Origin: Hymenobacter sp. DG25A
GTDB lineage: Bacteria > Bacteroidota > Bacteroidia > Cytophagales > Hymenobacteraceae
Assembly (NCBI RefSeq): GCF_001280305.1
Contig: NZ_CP012623.1
Coordinates: 1,426,001-1,490,000 of the forward strand
DNA length: 64,000 nt
Reading direction: 5' to 3'
The notes under the pieces are model-generated. The model was given only the letters and a program-made list of their open reading frames with translations. It did not search any database and had not been told where the DNA came from. Positions 16,447 to 25,607 of the stretch are shown piece after piece. Each line of letters begins with the position of its first letter. The stretch's first letter is position 1. Position numbers and translations under genes: made by a program.

Positions 16447-17088
16447 CTATTCTTCCCGGCGCACGCCCCCGGAAATAGTGGAATGGCGCTGCCGCAGCAC
16501 GGCCACCACATCTTCCAAGGATAACCCCGAGGCAGTAAGCAATACCAGCAAATGATACAGCAGATCAGCCGCTTCGCCTTTCAGCCCTTCCACGTTGCCC
16601 GCTACAGCATCAATAACTGTTTCTACGGCCTCCTCTCCCACTTTCTGTGCAATTTTGGGCATTCCCTTCCGGAACAGTGAAGCCGTGTATGACTTCGAGT
16701 CTTCCTCCGGAAACTGCTGCCGGCGCTGCACCAGCCGTTCCAGCTCGGCAATAAAGCTCACTGCCGGCGCCGGGTAAGCCGTCTGATCCAGTTGCTCAAA
16801 GCAGCTGGTGGTGCCGCGGTGGCAGGTTGGCCCATCGGGAATGGCCCGGATAAGCAGCGCATCCTGGTCACAGTCGGGGTGCTGGCTGACCACGGTGAGG
16901 TAGTTACCCGAGGTTTCGCCCTTGGTCCAGAGGCGTTGTTTGGAGCGGGAATAGAACGTTACGCGGCCGGTTTCCTGGGTTACGCGCTGCGCTTCCTCAT
17001 TCTGATAGCCCAGCATCAGCACCTGCCCGGTGTGGGCATCCTGCACGATAACGGGAATAAGCCCATCGGGCATTTTAGCAAAGTCCAT
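16447..17088 (-). CDS. hisIE: Bifunctional phosphoribosyl-AMP cyclohydrolase / phosphoribosyl-ATP pyrophosphohydrolase
   Basis: A 213-residue two-domain enzyme for steps 2 and 3 of histidine synthesis. The HisI half (about 1-110) has the zinc motifs HPDCDQDALLIRA and TCHRGTTSCF. The HisE half (about 112-213) has SYTASLFRKG, QKVGEEAVETVIDAV and EAADLLYHLLVLL, the MazG-like acidic helices. It is the last gene of the his operon, separated from hisF by 150 bp that contain a dispersed inverted repeat. Confidence 0.97.
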   Translation of the reverse strand: MDFAKMPDGLIPVIVQDAHTGQVLMLGYQNEEAQRVTQETGRVTFYSRSKQRLWTKGETSGNYLTVVSQHPDCDQDALLIRAIPDGPTCHRGTTSCFEQLDQTAYPAPAVSFIAELERLVQRRQQFPEEDSKSYTASLFRKGMPKIAQKVGEEAVETVIDAVAGNVEGLKGEAADLLYHLLVLLTASGLSLEDVVAVLRQRHSTISGGVRREE

Positions 17089-17113
17089 GGTGGGTAGTTA
17101 ATGAATGAAAACG

Positions 17114-17202
17114 GTCATCCTGCTGAGCATACCCGAAGTATCCAGTTTCGTGTGATAAGCCTCAACGAACCGGTAGAGATGCTTCGACAAGCTCAGCATG
17201 AC
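17114..17202. repeat. Dispersed inverted repeat, copy 1 (between hisF and hisIE)
   Basis: The left arm 17114-17142 (GTCATCCTGCTGAGCATACC...) is imperfectly complementary to the right arm 17176-17202 (GAGATGCTTCGACAAGCTCA...GCATGAC). The 40 bases at 17163-17202 recur at 46461-46500 with a single difference, so this is a family of dispersed elements, not a chance hairpin. Confidence 0.85.
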
Positions 17203-17238
17203 ACGTTCTTTATGAGTCATGGGCCTATTGTTCTGATC

Positions 17239-17997
17239 CTACAGCCGGACGGGAATACCATCCTGGCGCAGGTGCTCCTTCAATTCCCGGATACCAATTT
17301 CCCCGAAGTGGAAAATACTAGCGGCCAGTCCGGCATCGGCGTGGGCCTGCAGGAATACGTTGGTGAAGTCCTGCTTGGAGCCCGCCCCGCCGGACGCCAC
17401 CACCGGCACCGACACAGCCCGGCTTACGGCACCGGTAATATCCAGGGCAAATCCATCCTTGGTGCCGTCGTTGCTCATGGAGGTCAGCAGAATTTCGCCG
17501 GCGCCCCGGTCGGCGGCTTCGCGGCACCATTGCACGGCATCGCGGCCGGTGTTGTTGGTGCCGGCCCGGGTGTAGACCTGCCAGCCGGCGGCATCGTTAT
17601 AGCGCGTATCGGCGGCCACCACAATGCACTGGCTTCCGAAGCGGGCTGCCAGCTCATCAATCAGCTCCGGGCGCGCCAGAGCGGCCGAATTGATGCTTAC
17701 CTTATCGGCTCCGTTCATCAGCAGTACCTCTACATCCGCCACGGTGCCAATGCCGCCACCTACGGTGAATGGAATATCCAGCTCGCGGGCCACATCACGC
17801 ACCAGCGCTATCAGCGTGGCGCGCTTTTGGTTGGTAGCTGTAATATCGAGGAATACCAGCTCGTCGGCGCCTTCGCGGGCATAGCGCGATGCCAGCGCCA
17901 CCGGGTCGCCGGCATCGCGCAGGCCCTCAAAACGCACGCCTTTTACGGTGCGGCCATCTTTTATATCCAGGCAGGGAATGATTCGTTTGGTCAGCAT
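17239..17997 (-). CDS. hisF: Imidazole glycerol phosphate synthase, cyclase subunit
   Basis: A 252-residue TIM barrel that uses ammonia from HisH to close the imidazole ring, giving IGP and AICAR. The catalytic acids are in canonical positions: D11 in [11 protein letters not shown] and D130 in [10 protein letters not shown]. Phosphate-binding GGGI and ASGGAGS loops are present. It lies in the operon between hisA and hisIE. Confidence 0.97.
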
Positions 17998-18067
17998 GCT
18001 GCTAGTGCTTGAAGCGTTTCGGGCCTCTTCTGATGTTTAGAGGCCTGATACTGATAGTAGACTCGGG

Positions 18068-18784
18068 CTATAGCCACGGCTGTAATTCCTGCAGGGTGAT
18101 GGTGCCCTCGTAGATGGCCTTGCCAATGATAGCGCCGTGCATGCCAACGGCAGCCAGGGCTTCCACATCGGCAATGGTGGTAACGCCACCACTGGCCACC
18201 AGCCTGGCCGCGGGCACTTGTTCCCGCAGCAACTGGTACGTGCCGAGCGAAGGGCCCAGCAGCTTACCGTCCTTGCTTACATCGGTACAGATAAAAGTGG
18301 TGGCGCCCACCGTCAGATAATTCTCTACGAATTCCCGCAGCGTCCGCTCGCTCTGCTCGGCCCAGGCGTTAATGGAAATGTAGTTGTCGCGGAAGTCGGC
18401 TCCTATAATGATGCTATCCGCCCCGAAGGTGCGCAGCCAGCCGCTCACCGTTTCCGGTTCCCGTACGGCAATGCTGCCGGCGGTTATCTGCCGGGCCCCT
18501 GCATCGAAAGCCTGCCGCACGGCCTCCTCGCTCTGCAGTCCGCCCCCAAAGTCAATCACCAGGTTGGTGTGGCGGGCAATGCGTTCCAGCACCGGCAGGT
18601 TTACGGGCTGCTTGGCGCGGGCACCATCCAGGTCTACCAGGTGCAGGCGCTTTACGCCGTGCTGCTCAAAGCGCTGGGCTACGGCTACGGGGTCGGCATC
18701 ATAGGTGGTTTGCTGCGCGAAGTCTCCCTCCGTCAGGCGCACGCACTGGCCGTTTATGAGGTCAATAGCTGGAATGATTTCCAT
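18068..18784 (-). CDS. hisA: ProFAR isomerase
   Basis: A 238-residue TIM-barrel isomerase (1-(5-phosphoribosyl)-5-[(5-phosphoribosylamino)methylideneamino]imidazole-4-carboxamide isomerase). The ATG at 18784 starts MEIIPAIDLINGQCVRL with catalytic D8. The second acid is D130 in IIIGADFRDN. A TTG 18 bp upstream is in frame but adds only six residues. Gaps of about 70 bp separate it from hisH and hisF. Confidence 0.96.
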   Translation of the reverse strand: MEIIPAIDLINGQCVRLTEGDFAQQTTYDADPVAVAQRFEQHGVKRLHLVDLDGARAKQPVNLPVLERIARHTNLVIDFGGGLQSEEAVRQAFDAGARQITAGSIAVREPETVSGWLRTFGADSIIIGADFRDNYISINAWAEQSERTLREFVENYLTVGATTFICTDVSKDGKLLGPSLGTYQLLREQVPAARLVASGGVTTIADVEALAAVGMHGAIIGKAIYEGTITLQELQPWL

Positions 18785-18856
18785 AGAAGTTGTCAAAGGC
18801 AATAAGCTGGCCGGGCTCCATTTCCCGTCTTCCGGGCAGCGGTGCCACAGAGGCTG

Positions 18857-19450
18857 TTAGAGTTTCAGAAAGTTCTCCAGAATGCGGGTGCCCACCGAAC
18901 CACTCTTTTCCGTGTGGAATTGCACCGCGTAGAAGTTGCGGTGCTGCACAGCGGCACTGAACGCAGCGGTGGGGTATTCCGTCTGGGCAATGGTGTAGTC
19001 GCCTACGGGTGCATAGTAGCTATGCACGAAGTAAACATGGTCTTCCTGCTGCAGGCCATCAAACAGCGGACTGCGGAGGGCTTGCAGCGTGTTCCAACCC
19101 ATGTGGGGCACCTTGTAGTCCGGCGAACCTTCAAAGCGCACTACATCGAAAGGAAGAATGCCGAGCATGTCGGTACCGCCGCCTTCTTGGGTATGGCGCC
19201 CCAGCAGCTGCATGCCCAGGCAAATCCCCAGGAAAGGCTGCGTCAGGGTGGGCAGGAATTCATCCAGACCCTGGGCCCGCAGCTCCCGCATAGCCGAGGC
19301 CGCTTCGCCCTCACCGGGGAACAATACTTTATCTGCTCCTCGGATTACCTCATGGTCAGCGGTCAGCATAGCTTGTACCCCCAGGCGCTCCAGCGCAAAC
19401 AACACCGACTGCACATTGCCGCCTTTGTAATCAATTACCGCTATTTCCAT
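18857..19450 (-). CDS. hisH: Imidazole glycerol phosphate synthase, glutamine amidotransferase subunit
   Basis: A 197-residue class I glutaminase that feeds ammonia to HisF. The nucleophile C77 is in GICLGMQLL, and the triad partners H179 and E181 are in VQFHTEKSG. The oxyanion region FPGEGEA differs slightly from the usual PGVG. It begins 38 bp after a 117-nt inverted-repeat element that separates it from hisB. Confidence 0.96.
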   Translation of the reverse strand: MEIAVIDYKGGNVQSVLFALERLGVQAMLTADHEVIRGADKVLFPGEGEAASAMRELRAQGLDEFLPTLTQPFLGICLGMQLLGRHTQEGGGTDMLGILPFDVVRFEGSPDYKVPHMGWNTLQALRSPLFDGLQQEDHVYFVHSYYAPVGDYTIAQTEYPTAAFSAAVQHRNFYAVQFHTEKSGSVGTRILENFLKL

Positions 19451-19488
19451 TTGTTAAAATACAGGGTAAAGCACTCAAAAACCAGTCG

Positions 19489-19605
19489 ATAAACATTTGG
19501 GTAATATCAAGGACAATGTGCTTTTCGCCTTTAATCATTGATGACAATGAAATCAATTTAAGAAGTTGAAAGACAGCTACATATCTACATTACCCAAATG
19601 TTTAT
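19489..19605. repeat. AT-rich element with 17-bp terminal inverted repeats (hisB-hisH gap)
   Basis: ATAAACATTTGGGTAAT (19489-19505) and ATTACCCAAATGTTTAT (19589-19605) are perfect 17-bp inverted repeats around 83 bp of AT-rich sequence with smaller internal symmetry (ATTGAT...ATCAAT). The rest of the operon is GC-rich. It fits a miniature inserted element or a large intercistronic hairpin. I see no obvious target duplication. Confidence 0.8.
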
Positions 19606-19618
19606 ACAAATGAATAAC

Positions 19619-20731
19619 CTATAAAATACCCTTCGTGCTGGGGATTTCCATACGGCCGGCATCACGCACCAGCGCCATCTTAATAGACTTAGCCACGGCT
19701 TTGAAAATGGCTTCAATCTTATGGTGCTCGTTTTGTCCTTCGGCTTTTATGTTGAGGTTGCAGCGGGCCGCATCAGAGAAGCTCTTGAAGAAATGGTAAA
19801 ACATTTCCGTTGGCATATCCCCTATTTTCTCCCGCTTAAACTCGGCGTCCCATACTATCCAAGGACGGCCGGAGAAATCAATAGCCGCTTGCGCCAGTAC
19901 ATCATCCATAGGTAATAGAAAACCATAACGAGCCAGACCACGCTTATCCCCCAGGGCCTGGGTGAAGGCTTCGCCCAGGGCAATGGCGGTGTCTTCTATG
20001 GTGTGGTGCTCATCAATGTGAAGGTCGCCCTGCACCGTGATTTTCATATCCACGCCGGAGTGTTTGCTGAGCTGATCCAGCATGTGGTCGAAGAAACCCA
20101 GGCCGGTGTGCATCTCTGGTCGGCCGCTACCATCCAGATTCAGCTCGATGCTGATTTTGGTTTCGTTGGTATCACGCTGCACCACGGCGGTGCGGGCGGG
20201 CAGCCGCAGGAACTGGTATATTTTTTCCCAGCTGGTAGTCGTAAGGGCAGCACGCTCGTCGCCCTCCCCTTCCGGCCGCATCAGGATAGACTGGCACCCC
20301 AGGTTCTCGGCCAGCTCCACATCCGTCAGCCGGTCGCCGATGACGAACGAATGCGGCAGGTCATATTGGCTGGCATCGCCCATGTATTCTTCCAGCATGC
20401 CAATGCCGGGCTTACGCGTAGGCAGGTTCTCATGCGGGAAGCTCCGGTCAATGTGCTCCCGGGCAAACTCTACGCCTTCGGAGCGCAGAATATCCAGCAT
20501 CATCTGGTGGGCAGGCCAAAAGGTATGTTCAGGGAAGCTGTCGGTGCCCAGGCCATCCTGGTTGCTTACCAGCACCAGCTCATAGTCCAGCTCCCGGGCA
20601 ATGCGTGCCAGCCCCGTAATGGCGCCGGGTACAAATTGAAATTTTTCCCGACTCAGGGAATCCACTTGAAAATCCGTCGGCGGCTCGATGAGAATAGTCC
20701 CGTCGCGGTCAATGAAGAGTACTTTTTTCAT
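19619..20731 (-). CDS. hisB: Bifunctional histidinol-phosphatase / imidazoleglycerol-phosphate dehydratase
   Basis: A 370-residue fusion. The N-terminal HAD phosphatase (about 1-165) starts [18 protein letters not shown] with D8 and D10 as nucleophile and general acid. The C-terminal IGPD domain (about 180-370) has the two metal-binding His clusters, in [15 protein letters not shown] and [18 protein letters not shown], and a late [13 protein letters not shown] segment. The fused form is typical of enterobacteria and Bacteroidota. Confidence 0.97.
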
Positions 20732-20833
20732 GATTTGATTTATAACTCCGTGTTCAGGCGTTGCGCTAGGTTAAATCTTTTGCTCGAAGATGTTGTCAAG
20801 ATGAATGCAACAAATCGGCAGATAAGCTTTGGC

Positions 20834-20855
20834 AAACGCCGCACAACCGGCGTTT
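20834..20855 (-). other. Small hairpin just after the hisC stop codon
   Basis: AAACGCC (20834-20840) and GGCGTTT (20849-20855) form a 7-bp stem four bases past the hisC stop, within the 128-bp hisC-hisB gap. No T run follows on the minus strand, so it is more likely an mRNA-stabilising or processing hairpin than a terminator. Confidence 0.4.
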
Positions 20856-20859
20856 TGAT

Positions 20860-21936
20860 TTACTTATACTCCTGCAGTGCCTGCAGCAACTGCTTGTTTT
20901 CTTCGGGGGTTCCTACAGTCAGGCGGAGCGTGCCGGCACAGCCGGGCTGCGTGGTGCGGTTGCGCACTACAATGCCGCGGCCCAGCAGAAAATCATACAC
21001 GGCGGTAGCATCGGGGCGGAAACGCACCAGCAGGAAATTGGCATCGGAAGGAAAAACCTGCTCTACGATATCCACCGCCGGCAAACGCTCCTGGAGCCAG
21101 TCGCGGCCTATTAGCAGCTCCCGGCGCATCTGCTCAAAACGGGCCGCATCGCGCAGGGCTTGCAGCGCATGCTGCTGCGTGGCCTCCGATACATTATAAG
21201 GAGGCTTGATTTTATTTAGATAACCAATGACCTCCGGTGAGGCGAATGCCATACCCAGGCGCAGACCCGCCAAGCCCCAGGCTTTGGAAAACGTCTGCAG
21301 CACCACCAGATTCGGAAACTCATCCAGGTGGGAGGTCCAGCTGGGAGCAGCGGCGAAATCGGCGTAGGCTTCGTCTACTACTACCAGACCACGGAAGCCG
21401 CGCAGTATTTCCTCTATGGCATTGGCATGAAGAAGGTTACCGGTGGGGTTATTGGGGGAGCACAGGAATACCAGCTTGGCTTCAGAAGCCAGCACGCCGG
21501 CCACCGTTTCGGCGGAAAGCTGAAAGTCGGCCGTGAGCGGCAGGCGCTCAATGCGAACATCGTTCAAATTGGCGGCAACCTCATACATGCCATAAGTAGG
21601 TGGCAGGATCAGGATGCTGTCCTGCCCGGGCGTGCACGTGAGGCGAACCAGCAAGTCAATGGCTTCATCAGAGCCGTTACCCAGGAAAATCTGCTCGGGG
21701 CGCACGCCTTTCAGCAGGGCCAGCTCGGCCTTTACGGCGCGCTGCATTGGATCTGGGTAGCGGTTGAACCGCTCGGGGCCAGCGCTGCCCAGGCTGTTCT
21801 CGTTGGCATCGAGCATCACATGCGCTTCTCCCTGAAATTCGTCGCGAGCTGAAGAGTAAGGCTTCATGGTCCGGATATTGGGCCGCACCAAGCTATCTAG
21901 GTTGAACATCACAAAGGTTGAGGATGGGGCGTTCAT
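20860..21936 (-). CDS. hisC: Histidinol-phosphate aminotransferase
   Basis: A 358-residue PLP enzyme (fold type I) that transaminates imidazole-acetol phosphate with glutamate. Key features are LDANENSLG (43-51), D188 in VVVDEAYADF, and the Schiff-base lysine K218 in TFSKAWGLAGLRLG. It starts 6 bp after hisD, so the two are translationally linked. A second possible start, ATG at residue 10, cannot be excluded. Confidence 0.96.
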   Translation of the reverse strand: MNAPSSTFVMFNLDSLVRPNIRTMKPYSSARDEFQGEAHVMLDANENSLGSAGPERFNRYPDPMQRAVKAELALLKGVRPEQIFLGNGSDEAIDLLVRLTCTPGQDSILILPPTYGMYEVAANLNDVRIERLPLTADFQLSAETVAGVLASEAKLVFLCSPNNPTGNLLHANAIEEILRGFRGLVVVDEAYADFAAAPSWTSHLDEFPNLVVLQTFSKAWGLAGLRLGMAFASPEVIGYLNKIKPPYNVSEATQQHALQALRDAARFEQMRRELLIGRDWLQERLPAVDIVEQVFPSDANFLLVRFRPDATAVYDFLLGRGIVVRNRTTQPGCAGTLRLTVGTPEENKQLLQALQEYK

Positions 21937-21942
21937 GACGCT

Positions 21943-23250
21943 TTAATTATTGACTTCGCCGGCGGCCAACGCTTCCAGCCGTAACGTAATGGCCCGGGCG
22001 TGGGCCCGCAGGCCTTCGGCTTCCGCCATGGTTTCTACAACGGGCCCTACATTCAGCAGGCCTTCGGCCGTGAGCCGCTGGAAGGTAATTTTCTTGAAGA
22101 AGGAATCCAGCGACACGCCACTGTAGTTTCGGGCGTAGCCGTTGGTAGGCAGGGTGTGATTAGTACCGGAGGCGTAGTCGCCGGCCGCTTCCGGAGTGAG
22201 ATGCCCAAGGAATACGGAACCCGCACTGGTCACTCCTTCGGCCAGCTGCTCGGGGTTGCGCACAGCCAGGATCAAATGCTCAGGCGCATACTGATTGGAG
22301 AAGTACAGCATTTCCTCCGGTGTGCGGAGCAAAATAGCGCGGCTTTCGGCCAGCGCCTGGGCGGCCACATCGGCCCGAGGCAGCTCGCGCAGCTGGCGCG
22401 CCACTTCGGCCTTCGTTCCCTCCAGCACCGTCATGGAGTCAGAGAGCAGAATCACCTGCGAGTCTGGGCCGTGCTCAGCTTGACTCAGCAAATCAGCCGC
22501 CACGAAGGCGGGGTTAGCCGACTCATCGGCAATAACCAAAACTTCTGAAGGGCCGGCCGGCATATCAATAGCCACGCCGTAGCGGGTTGCCAGCTGTTTG
22601 GCTGCCGTAACGTAGCGGTTTCCGGGGCCAAAAATCTTATCAACGGCGGGCACCGACTCCGTGCCCCCGCTTAAAGCGGCAATGGCCTGGGCTCCGCCGG
22701 CTTTTACTATAGTGGATATACCCAGCAGCTGAGCCGTGAACAGGATAATGGGGTTCACAGATCCATCCCGCTGGGGCGGCGTGCACAGCACAATTTCCGG
22801 ACACGCGGCCAGGCGGGCGGGCACGCCCAGCATAAGCAAGGTGCTAAAAAGAGGCGCCGTACCGCCCGGAATATACAGGCCTACCCGCTGCACCGGCACC
22901 GCCCGGCGCCAGCATAGCACGCCCGGCATGGTTTCTACCCGCTCTTCTTGGGGCACCTGGGCCTGGTGGAAGCGCAGAATGTTGGCATGGGCAAGGCGAA
23001 TGGCAGTTTGTAAATCAGCGGGCACCTGGGCGGCCGCGGCGGCCAGCTCTTCCGGGCTGACCCGCAAACCATTGGTCAGCTCTGCGCCATCAAACTGTTG
23101 GGCGTATTCCAGCAGGGCCGCGTCGCCACGTTGGCGGACGTCGGTAAAGATTTGCTGCACGCGCTGCTCCACGTCCTGGGCCTGCTGCTGGGCGGCGCGT
23201 AGCTGCAACGCGCCCCACTCGGCCTGGCTGGGATATTGAAAAATCTGCAT
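21943..23250 (-). CDS. hisD: Histidinol dehydrogenase
   Basis: A 435-residue zinc enzyme that oxidises histidinol to histidine with two NAD+. Zinc and catalytic motifs are present: LLSQAEHGPDSQ, GDYASGTNHTLPT and the late AEGLRAHARAI. The N-terminal helical part (DVEQRVQQIFTDVRQRGDAA) is normal for the family. It is separated from hisG by 108 bp containing a large stem-loop. Confidence 0.97.
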   Translation of the reverse strand: MQIFQYPSQAEWGALQLRAAQQQAQDVEQRVQQIFTDVRQRGDAALLEYAQQFDGAELTNGLRVSPEELAAAAAQVPADLQTAIRLAHANILRFHQAQVPQEERVETMPGVLCWRRAVPVQRVGLYIPGGTAPLFSTLLMLGVPARLAACPEIVLCTPPQRDGSVNPIILFTAQLLGISTIVKAGGAQAIAALSGGTESVPAVDKIFGPGNRYVTAAKQLATRYGVAIDMPAGPSEVLVIADESANPAFVAADLLSQAEHGPDSQVILLSDSMTVLEGTKAEVARQLRELPRADVAAQALAESRAILLRTPEEMLYFSNQYAPEHLILAVRNPEQLAEGVTSAGSVFLGHLTPEAAGDYASGTNHTLPTNGYARNYSGVSLDSFFKKITFQRLTAEGLLNVGPVVETMAEAEGLRAHARAITLRLEALAAGEVNN

Positions 23251-23358: not shown

Positions 23359-24210
23359 TTAGGCAATCATCTTTTCAATGGGGAGCACCAGAATGCCTTC
23401 GGCACCCACCGCTTTCAGCTGGCCCGTGATGTGCCAGAAGTCGTCCTCATTCACCACCGACTGCACCGACACCCAGCCTTCTTCAGCCAGCGGCGTAACC
23501 GTGGGCGACTTAATACCGGGCAACAGCTGCTTCACAGCTTCCAGGGAAGCAACCGGGGCATTCAGCAGAATGTACTTGTTGCGACGGGCGCGGCGCACGG
23601 CCTGCATGCGAAACAGCAACTGCTCCAGCAATTCCTTTTTCTCCGCGTTCAGGCTTTGGTTGGCAATCAGCACCGCCTCCGAGCGAAACACCGTTTCTAC
23701 CTCGCGCAGCCCATTGCCCAGCAGCGTAGAGCCACTGCTCACAATATCACAAATAGCCTCGGCCAGCCCAATGCTGGGGGCAATTTCCACGGAGCCGCTG
23801 ATGGTGTGCAGGTCGGCTTTCACGCCCCGCTCGGCCAGGTAGCTGCCCAGAATCAGAGGATATGAGGTGGCGATGCTCCGGCCCTGCAGATCCTGCACCG
23901 AGTCGTAAGCGGCGGCGCGGGGAACGGCCAGGCTCAGGCGGCATTTGCTAAAGCCCAGGCCTTCTATTTCGAGCTCCGGAAAACCGGCTTCTACCAGTAC
24001 GTTCTGCCCCACAATGCCCAGATCGGCCACGCCATCCTTCACGTAGCCGGGAATATCGTCGTCGCGCAGATACAGGATTTCGAGGGGAAAGTTGGTGGCT
24101 TCGGTCTTGAGCTTGTAGGACGAGGTGAGGAAGCTGATGCCGCACTCCCGAATCAGATTCAGGGAGTCTTCGCTGAGGCGGCCCGATTTCTGGATGGCCA
24201 GACGGAGCAT
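23359..24210 (-). CDS. hisG: ATP phosphoribosyltransferase (long form)
   Basis: A 283-residue enzyme for the committed first step of histidine synthesis (ATP + PRPP). It starts MLRLAIQKSGRLSEDSLNLI. The catalytic domain has DDIPGYVKDGVADLGIVGQN and the PRPP loop SSGSTLLGNGLREV. The C-terminal region of about 75 residues (SPTVTPLAEEGWVSVQSVV to the end) is the ACT-like regulatory domain of the hexameric HisG-L form, so feedback inhibition by histidine is expected and no HisZ is needed. It is the first gene of the operon. Confidence 0.97.
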   Translation of the reverse strand: MLRLAIQKSGRLSEDSLNLIRECGISFLTSSYKLKTEATNFPLEILYLRDDDIPGYVKDGVADLGIVGQNVLVEAGFPELEIEGLGFSKCRLSLAVPRAAAYDSVQDLQGRSIATSYPLILGSYLAERGVKADLHTISGSVEIAPSIGLAEAICDIVSSGSTLLGNGLREVETVFRSEAVLIANQSLNAEKKELLEQLLFRMQAVRRARRNKYILLNAPVASLEAVKQLLPGIKSPTVTPLAEEGWVSVQSVVNEDDFWHITGQLKAVGAEGILVLPIEKMIA

Positions 24211-24279: not shown

Positions 24280-24411
24280 AGAGTTTGAAAAGAAACGGGG
24301 AGCAGGACCCTTTCGTTGGAATACGGCAACAGCTTGCCGGGGCCACCTGTTTCGGGGGCCGGGGAACCTGAAGCGGTTCGCCCAACGGGTCAATATGATT
24401 CGTTCATTCCT
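24280..24411 (-). promoter_or_regulatory. Candidate transcription attenuator of the his operon
   Basis: Between the leader ORF and hisG, GGTGGCC (minus strand, plus 24341-24347) can pair in two ways. One is with GGCCACC inside the His codons of the leader (24426-24432). The other is with the nearer GGCCCCC just upstream of it, in a hairpin with loop GAAACA. A further hairpin AACG...GGG/CCC...CGTT followed by TTCTTTTC lies near 24280-24315. Two mutually exclusive folds linked to ribosome position is the hallmark of attenuation. The terminator is weak by eye. Confidence 0.45.
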
Positions 24412-24528
24412 CTAGAAAGAGGAATGGTGGCCATGCAGATGATGGTGCGCCGCGCGCAGCCAGCCGGCGGCCGCAGGGGCGGCAGCAAGGGGGCTGATGG
24501 AGCAAATAAAAGGCGCGGCGAGCGGCAT
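24412..24528 (-). CDS. Putative histidine leader peptide
   Basis: A 38-codon frame on the minus strand, from ATG at 24528 to TAG at 24412, lies 200 bp before hisG. Its product is unremarkable until the end, where it reads AAHHHLHGHHSSF, with five His in eight residues and stop five residues later. His-rich runs just before the stop are the signature of leader peptides that sense charged tRNA-His by ribosome stalling. An overlapping frame with a TTG start (24404-24634) has only scattered His. The assignment rests on the His run and position; no ribosome-binding site is evident, which is usual in this phylum. Confidence 0.6.
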   Translation of the reverse strand: MPLAAPFICSISPLAAAPAAAGWLRAAHHHLHGHHSSF

Positions 24529-24701
24529 GGAGTAGGCTTTGGTGGTGCAATACTACGGTAGAAGAGCCAGATAAAATCTTTTTCTTGAAAAAATCTTCAA
24601 AAATCTGACCTTTGAAATGCTTTATTCTCCCCAAACTCTATAAATGGCACTATTGTTTCGGGTAGCAACCGAAACGTTTACATAGTATTTAGTTCTTGAG
24701 T

Positions 24702-25607
24702 ATGCATAGCACTTTTCATACTGTTCTGGCCGGATGTGTTGGTTTTATGGTAGCTATGGGGGTTGTGGCTCCCGACGCGCAAGCGCAGCAGGCCAGCAAG
24801 CCCGCCGTGCAGCTGCCCCTGCCCCAGGTCAGCCCCCACGCTCTGGTACAACAAACCATTGGCCTGACGGATATTACCGTTGACTATCATGCCCCCGGGG
24901 TGAAAGGCCGCACCGTGTGGGGGCAGTTGGTGCCCTACAATCAGATATGGCGGGCGGGAGCCAATGAAAATACGGTGGTTAAGTTTTCGGCGCCGGTGCG
25001 CATCAATGGGCAAGCGGTACCTACCGGGAGCTATTCCCTGTATGTATTGCCCGTTTCTGACCAGGACTGGCAGTTTGTGCTGAACCGGGTAACCACGCAC
25101 TGGGGCGCTGAGGGCTACGACGAGAAAGATGACCTGGTCCGCATCCCCATTGTGCCGGAGGCCTCGCCCTTCCGCGAAACGCTGCTTTACTGGTTTTCCG
25201 ATGCGAAAAACGGCACGGCCCGCCTGAACCTGAGCTGGGAAAAGCTAACCGGCTCAGTCTACATCACCACCGACGTGCACGCCCAGGCGCTGGCGGGCAT
25301 TGAGCAAACGCTGGCCAAACAGCCGCACAACTGGCAGCTACTTGCCCAGGCCGCCGAGTATCTGATTCAGAATAACATTCAGGCCGAGCTGGCGCTGCGC
25401 TACATCAACGAGTCCATCCGCCTCAACGACACTTACCTCAACAACTGGCTGAAAGCCCGCTTGCTGGCTTCCAAGGATGATTACAGCACGGCCATTGTAT
25501 ACGCACGCAAAGCCCTCAAGCTCGGCGACAAAGACGACAACACCTTCAAGTCGCAGCAGCCCACCATGCGCATTGCCCTCACGGAGTGGCAGGCCAAGGC
25601 ATATTAG
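24702..25607 (+). CDS. DUF2911 domain exported protein
   Basis: A 301-residue protein with a signal peptide ending around APDAQAQQ. Residues 40-180 match the DUF2911 pattern: ITVDYHAPGVKGRTVWGQLV, WRAGANENTVVKFSAPVRIN and GSYSLYVLP, then the YWFSDAKNGTARLNLSWEKL strand pair. The C-terminal third is helical and TPR-like (AQAAEYLIQNNIQAELALRY). Function is unknown; the DUF2911 fold is beta-rich and probably periplasmic. The ATG at 24702 is preferred over a TTG at 24696. It is divergent from the his operon, and a 7-bp hairpin (24655-24675) sits in the shared upstream region. Confidence 0.87.
   Translation: MHSTFHTVLAGCVGFMVAMGVVAPDAQAQQASKPAVQLPLPQVSPHALVQQTIGLTDITVDYHAPGVKGRTVWGQLVPYNQIWRAGANENTVVKFSAPVRINGQAVPTGSYSLYVLPVSDQDWQFVLNRVTTHWGAEGYDEKDDLVRIPIVPEASPFRETLLYWFSDAKNGTARLNLSWEKLTGSVYITTDVHAQALAGIEQTLAKQPHNWQLLAQAAEYLIQNNIQAELALRYINESIRLNDTYLNNWLKARLLASKDDYSTAIVYARKALKLGDKDDNTFKSQQPTMRIALTEWQAKAY

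Follow-up and report, generated by a model that had tools for sequence, protein, structure and literature searches.

It is likely that the sequence upstream of hisG in Hymenobacter sp. DG25A is a histidine leader-peptide attenuator serving the whole his operon. The element falls outside the classic U-tract terminator type and is a variant of an already published kind. The window analysed here is a 64,000-nt stretch, positions 1426001-1490000 of a 3.78 Mb single-contig genome, and the features discussed are collected in Table 1. A complete his operon, hisG and seven further genes, lies behind the leader on the same strand. The leader peptide ends HHHLHGHHSSF, directly followed by the stop codon, and 201 nt of the minus strand separate this stop from the hisG ATG (24210). 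This bears out the original prediction of a 38-codon frame ending HHHLHGHH-SSF-stop about 200 bp before hisG. A short ORF with a His run upstream of a biosynthetic operon is the cognate-codon arrangement of a his-type attenuator. A divergent gene (24696-25607, plus strand) lies at the far end of the 485-nt intergenic region ahead of hisG, and its product has a weak TPR-type NCBIfam match, below the cut-off.

Table 1. Features of the his leader region and operon in the window.
Feature	Position	Strand	Basis or remark
Predicted -7 box TAGTATTG, one mismatch to TAnnTTTG	24548-24555	-	motif; predicted start ~24543
His leader ORF	24412-24528	-	38 codons + TAG; peptide MPLAAPFICSISPLAAAPAAAGWLRAAHHHLHGHHSSF, then stop
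Regulatory codons (putative) HHHLHGHH (six His, one Leu, one Gly)	24424-24447	-	His run kept, flanks vary
Hairpin P1 ATTCCTC(T)/(A)GAGGAAT	24406-24425	-	near-invariance
CATATTG motif, possible RNA polymerase pause site	24391-24397	-	near-fixed spacing after P1
Hairpin P3 GGCGAACC/GGTTCCCC	24361-24382	-	covariation
Hairpin P4 GGCCCCC/GGTGGCC, the nearer pair of the original prediction	24341-24360	-	covariation
Small hairpin P5 CGGCAA/TTGCCG, then TATTCC	24324-24339	-	weakly terminator-like, some relatives only
hisG, first operon gene	23359-24210	-	TIGR00070
hisD, hisC, bifunctional hisB, hisH, hisA, hisF, hisIE	16447-23250	-	NCBIfam matches, ORF lists

Conservation of the His run carries most of the argument. 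We detected hisG in 119/120 genus, 97/100 family, 91/118 order and 128/148 phylum genomes (overlapping sets); genomes without hisG offer no leader to read. The genus sample consisted of 30 loci and 40 regions upstream of hisG, and the wider sample of up to 30 best loci each from the family, order and phylum sets with 40 further regions. Also included were the best 80 of 502 named loci with a related hisG, which came from Hymenobacter, Pontibacter, Rufibacter, Adhaeribacter and Solirubrum. Removal of identical 300-mers left 217 upstream regions, 152 from Hymenobacteraceae and 65 from other Bacteroidota. At two loci (L150, L258) the hisG start was unrecognised. Two genomes (G061, G062) have hisG in three pieces, one of the G062 pieces with internal stops, and a third (G111) has it in two; each is a broken gene or a sequencing error.

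The regions were scored for an ORF with a His-rich 10-codon stretch that ends 20-260 nt before hisG, with the reverse strand and dinucleotide shuffles as controls. All 152 Hymenobacteraceae regions have such an ORF with at least 3 His in 10 codons (reverse strand 12; shuffle mean 13.8). With at least 4 His the count is 151/152 (reverse strand 0; shuffle mean 1.6), and with at least 5 it is 136/152 (0 and 0.0). Among the 65 regions from other Bacteroidota, 30, 21 and 17 reach these three levels, against 2, 0 and 0 on the reverse strand and means of 3.6, 0.6 and 0.0 in shuffles. The His leader is universal in the Hymenobacteraceae sample; outside the family it is frequent, not universal, and 33 upstream regions are listed as without a His-rich leader.

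What follows the His run differs from lineage to lineage. By peptide ending, the sampled Hymenobacter leaders form group A (HHSS(F), 61 distinct leaders including the window), group B (W(G/E)AG..GC, 20 distinct leaders) and group C (short after the His run, 15 distinct leaders). The downstream RNA changes along with the peptide ending, giving three different architectures inside one genus, all with the His run, and the run and its position before hisG stay constant. A His run that is kept while the later residues and the RNA differ between lineages indicates a leader peptide. The original prediction, that the logic of His leader peptides operates here, is therefore supported by the conserved run, by its divergent flanks and by its place in front of a complete his operon. 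The proposed comparison of hisG upstream regions in relatives gave the expected picture of conserved His runs with divergent flanking residues, and the absence of a His-rich frame from close relatives, which would have spoken against a leader, was seen in none of the 152 family regions.

We trained a covariance model on 43 leaders from group A, Pontibacter and Rufibacter. It matches 82/120 family genomes, with one match per genome, and 42/291 order genomes, including 17 of family f19 and one of family f9; many of the matched sequences belong to the training set or are close to it. Among the misses listed are Hymenobacter of groups B and C and one genome without hisG. The hisG coordinates are known for 72 of the 82 family matches and 4 of 18 others, and all 76 matches sit 48-201 nt upstream of hisG on the same strand.

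The predicted promoter places the start of transcription very close to the leader. In Flavobacterium psychrophilum a TAnnTTTG box is described at -12 to -5, with a median 5′ UTR of 24 bp and 5.5% of mRNAs leaderless (PMC9723704). A scan for an exact TAnnTTTG at most 40 nt upstream of an in-frame start found the box in 58/61 group A leaders (gap 16-22 nt), 20/20 of group B (6-8) and 15/15 of group C (7-8). It is likewise present in 9/9 Solirubrum-like (19-25), 20/32 Pontibacter (8-11), 7/7 Adhaeribacter (8-10) and 8/8 Rufibacter leaders (9-10), in 7/11 from other Cytophagales (3-24) and in 12/21 of the phylum draw (4-35). Provided that the F. psychrophilum spacing applies, the 5′ UTR equals the gap from box to ATG minus 4. 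The predicted 5′ UTR is then 12-18 nt in group A (15 in the window), about 2-4 nt in groups B and C, and 4-7 nt for the box-bearing Pontibacter, Adhaeribacter and Rufibacter leaders. Predicted 5′ UTRs as short as 2-7 nt, which many leaders have, point to a route to early translation without a Shine-Dalgarno sequence. The original prediction had remarked that initiation without this sequence changes how a leader is translated, a remark that gains weight from such short predicted 5′ UTRs. No exact TAnnTTTG occurs between leader and hisG in the window, so by this motif transcription does not appear to start downstream of the leader.

Some relatives depart from this promoter layout. Past the leader stop and ahead of hisG, a second exact TAnnTTTG occurs in 6/8 Rufibacter (L134-L139 and named loci) and 4/7 Adhaeribacter sequences (L129-L133, L209 and named loci), and in 1/96 of Hymenobacter groups A-C. 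This second box might serve as a basal promoter independent of the leader. Two order-level loci (L101, L103) have the ATG of a short peptide, MISQRATHSPFRHRRHH, just 4 nt past the box, and with the usual start spacing this leader would be leaderless.

The RNA between the leader and hisG begins with P1, whose loop and the start of whose 3′ arm are overlapped by the leader stop codon TAG. P1 is near-invariant in the 61 group A sequences and in 43 sequences of three genera; it barely varies in the family, so its pairing draws no covariation support there. In group A its 5′ arm begins 16-28 nt past the first His codon, which is the geometry of the post-His complementary segment in the phylum-draw leaders described below. 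Other complementary arms stand around the stop codon in distant lineages (ATCTCTC/GAGAGAT, GGCTCTC/GAGAGCC) and in group B (GGGTGCTA/TAGCACC). An ATATNG-like motif follows P1 by 9 nt in 57/61 group A sequences (8 nt in the other 4), 8/8 Rufibacter, 27/32 Pontibacter (10 nt in 5) and 9/17 of family f19 (8 nt in 2, absent from 6). The near-fixed spacing and the E. coli trp case make a polymerase pause at CATATTG possible.

Hairpins P3 and P4 vary in a way that preserves pairing. In the 61-sequence group A alignment, both-side changes occur at 5/7 pairs of P3 and 3/7 pairs of P4, 8/14 in all. Over the whole group A structure, both-side cells number 58; shuffles gave 15.1, with none of 500 as high, and slid controls gave 5-18. 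We relied on this count because an earlier swap test of the hairpins was biased, the hairpins having been picked for pairing. Fold z-scores are modest in group A (mean -1.73), weak in group B (-0.71) and absent in group C (0.51). The conserved part stops well short of hisG, and the stretch adjoining the hisG start is variable.

The original prediction had also proposed that GGCCACC, within the His codons, competes with the nearer GGCCCCC for a downstream GGTGGCC. All three heptamers are present in the window (24426-24432, 24354-24360 and 24341-24347, respectively), so the complementarities exist in the window sequence alone. As a conserved feature the long-range pair did not hold up: GGCCACC/GGTGGCC is fully paired in 9/61 group A sequences and at 6/7 positions or more in 39/61. 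Nor did the compensatory change expected of it appear at the middle position: in 18 sequences the shared strand carries C there, yet the His-codon base stays A. The nearer pair is the supported one, with at least 6/7 positions paired in 59/61 sequences and the near partner changed to G in 18/18 of the C variants. One reservation is that in 30/61 sequences, including the window, the middle of the near helix is a C/T mismatch, where A/T would pair in the long-range helix.

Two further pairings were considered and rejected. The C-run that follows CATATTG seemed by eye to pair well with the 5′ arm of P3, but this pairing failed a swap test (57/118 with the own partner against a fraction of 0.435 swapped), a crude test that used automatic hairpin picking. 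A long-range helix in group A, GACCCCGTTGG/CCAACG..GGGTC, was scarcely above shuffles (C-run:CCAACG 6.0 against 5.5 nt).

At the threshold applied, no intrinsic terminator was found in the stretch from leader to hisG of the window. Terminator-like matches exceed shuffles in group A (25/61 against 13.2), with scattered positions and the window not among them, and stay near shuffle level in groups B (7/20 against 8.0) and C (9/15 against 7.0). They are above shuffles in Pontibacter (13/32 against 1.0) and Rufibacter (5/8 against 0.6); Solirubrum-like leaders gave 5/9 against 3.4, Adhaeribacter 1/7 against 0.4 and other Cytophagales 1/10 against 0.4. The terminator part had been called weak by eye, and Hymenobacter indeed has no conserved U-tract terminator. 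This supports the accompanying guess that the form differs from that of the classic attenuator.

The phylum draw looks quite different. It comprises 21 leaders, about 18 of which come from beyond the order (L245 and L248 belong to the order, in family f19), and 20 were tested, L250 lying too far from hisG. A strong hairpin with a T-tract is present in 20/20 (shuffled mean 1.4), at +53 to +64 relative to the stop codon of the leader. In 19/20 leaders, all but L257, the 5′ arm of this terminator is complementary to the codons that directly follow the His run, more so than in shuffles (p≤0.05, with p≤0.01 reached in 15). The complementary segment starts at least 16 nt past the first His codon and ends at most 6 nt from the start of the stop codon. 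It would thus be free when the ribosome stalls on the first His codon and covered when the ribosome has reached the stop, which is classic attenuator wiring. We infer that this terminator-type wiring is the ancestral form, and the comparison suggests that one His sensor is carried by different RNA switches across the Bacteroidota sampled. In two Adhaeribacter leaders (L129, L209) the 3′ arm of P1 complements a strand further downstream that leads into a T-run (GGAATAAT/ATTATTCC); these leaders may be intermediate between the terminator layout and that of Hymenobacter.

Folding under ribosome masks does not support the attenuator model, and this result lowers our confidence in it. The calculation is an equilibrium one and ignores timing. 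Among the leaders listed, the terminator formed at 0.96-1.00 in both states for L261, L252, L246, L243 and L248, and it also formed in both states for L025, L018 and L047. Two others had a sign opposite to that expected (L050, 0.96 stalled and 0.35 at the stop; L129, 0.89 and 0.26).

The attenuator would work through the fate of the segment directly after the His run. Transcription would begin between a few and about 18 nt upstream of the leader ATG, as the promoter motifs indicate, and a very short 5′ UTR would let a ribosome load as the RNA emerges. If charged His-tRNA is scarce, the ribosome should stall at the first His codons, which in group A lie 16-28 nt before the 5′ arm of P1; if the ribosome covers about 12 nt, P1 would remain free to fold. 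If histidine is plentiful, the ribosome would reach the stop codon inside P1 and keep P1 open. In group A the post-His segment would pair with the segment just past the stop, forming P1, rather than with a terminator arm. P1 would be followed by the possible pause site and then by P3 and P4. The candidate step that ends transcription in Hymenobacter is a GC hairpin with a poor U-tract, or Rho. As a tentative model, Hymenobacter and its kin may have kept the His sensor of the phylum and replaced its terminator: the ribosome on a near-leaderless ORF without a Shine-Dalgarno sequence would melt the stop-codon hairpin, and release or Rho at a programmed pause would decide his expression.

Other readings differ mainly in the output. 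The same His sensor could have a Rho-dependent output, with the C-rich RNA past the leader acting as a Rho site that the ribosome, depending on its position, would mask or expose. Hymenobacter has no conserved terminator of the U-tract type, groups B and C have a conserved C-rich strand, and the RNA from the leader stop to hisG has more C than G (skew 0.21 in group A, 0.13 in group B and 0.05 in group C), all of which fit. The skew is weak, however, and also reaches 0.15-0.18 in Solirubrum-like, Rufibacter and Pontibacter leaders. Naked RNA past a stalled ribosome would itself favour Rho, which is the wrong sign unless structure masks the site, and we regard this output as possible though doubtful. 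Control of translation, in which stalling alters folding at the hisG start and leaves transcription alone, is improbable. About 200 nt of partly structured RNA lie ahead of hisG, and Shine-Dalgarno sequences are described as absent from Flavobacterium, a genus in this phylum (PMC9723704), but the conserved part ends well before hisG, the hisG-proximal stretch is variable, and terminators are present in 20/20 of the phylum-draw leaders tested.

The remaining readings set the His sensor aside. A functional His-rich microprotein, for example a metal-binding one, might precede hisG by coincidence, and the recurrence of the HHSS-type ending in several genera counts in its favour. Its length, N-terminus and post-His residues nevertheless vary by lineage, down to MFINQLHHHHFHYCSQAMC or ...HHHHL, the covariance model matches once per genome and before hisG in 76/76 checked, and the post-His codons fit RNA pairing in 19/20 phylum-draw leaders, which makes a microprotein very unlikely. 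A His run arising by chance might be considered in a GC-rich region such as this. The reverse-strand and dinucleotide-shuffle controls fall so far below 152/152 that they exclude this origin, and we give it practically no weight. The attenuator reading of the window element is the one retained.

At the gathering cut-off, an Rfam 15 scan of the window returned a tRNA only, and at a relaxed threshold the leader region gave six matches, all far below the cut-offs. The same scan of 17 relatives gave no leader family. A literature search that reached few subscription papers returned no report of such a leader in Hymenobacteraceae. Attenuation in many bacteria is the subject of a 2010 paper (Lopatovskaya 2010). 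When controlled by a ribosome, attenuation requires ribosome and RNA polymerase to keep pace. Leaders are frequent in the sampled Bacteroidota, which mostly initiate without Shine-Dalgarno sequences, and this makes coupling testable at a defined site.

Related elements have been proposed in the phylum. A structured 5′ element before hisG is described in F. psychrophilum and other Flavobacteriaceae, where leader-peptide attenuation is proposed for amino-acid operons (PMC9723704). It shares gene and phylum with the present leader, and the phylum-draw loci fit it; the text consulted names Flavobacteriaceae, not Hymenobacteraceae, and the likeness is one of description. In Bacteroides thetaiotaomicron, short ORFs located in long 5′ UTRs have been compared to the leader peptides of attenuation (PMC7366714), the same idea in the same phylum, with no his leader named in the text consulted. 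The Bacteroid-trp RNA motif (RF01692), a candidate cis-regulatory RNA of Bacteroidetes whose trp link comes from its name in the source (PMC2864571), has no match in the Hymenobacter sp. DG25A genome.

The closest parallels are in enterobacteria. The his attenuator of E. coli and Salmonella is described as folding in dependence on ribosome stalling, with one more hairpin set between the pause hairpin and the terminator (PMC1183508), and its leader, hisL, stands before hisG (PMC8305728). The Hymenobacter element resembles hisL in having a His-codon leader before hisG and, as proposed here, stall-dependent folding; the additional hairpin of hisL is a further likeness. The Hymenobacter element differs from hisL in having no conserved U-tract terminator, a stop codon within a hairpin and a predicted very short 5′ UTR.

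The trp leader stop codon sits in the loop of 1:2. In E. coli trp the ribosome is described as melting hairpin I:II, which frees the polymerase, and a pause site follows (PMC1183508). Known pause hairpins are placed 11-12 nt from the RNA end (PMC12288461). The corresponding distance in Hymenobacter, from P1 to the base before the G of the motif, is 13-14 nt, which speaks somewhat against a pause at CATATTG. A hairpin that the ribosome would melt and behind which a possible pause site lies, together with a stop codon in that hairpin, likens the Hymenobacter leader to trp, from which it differs in sensing histidine.
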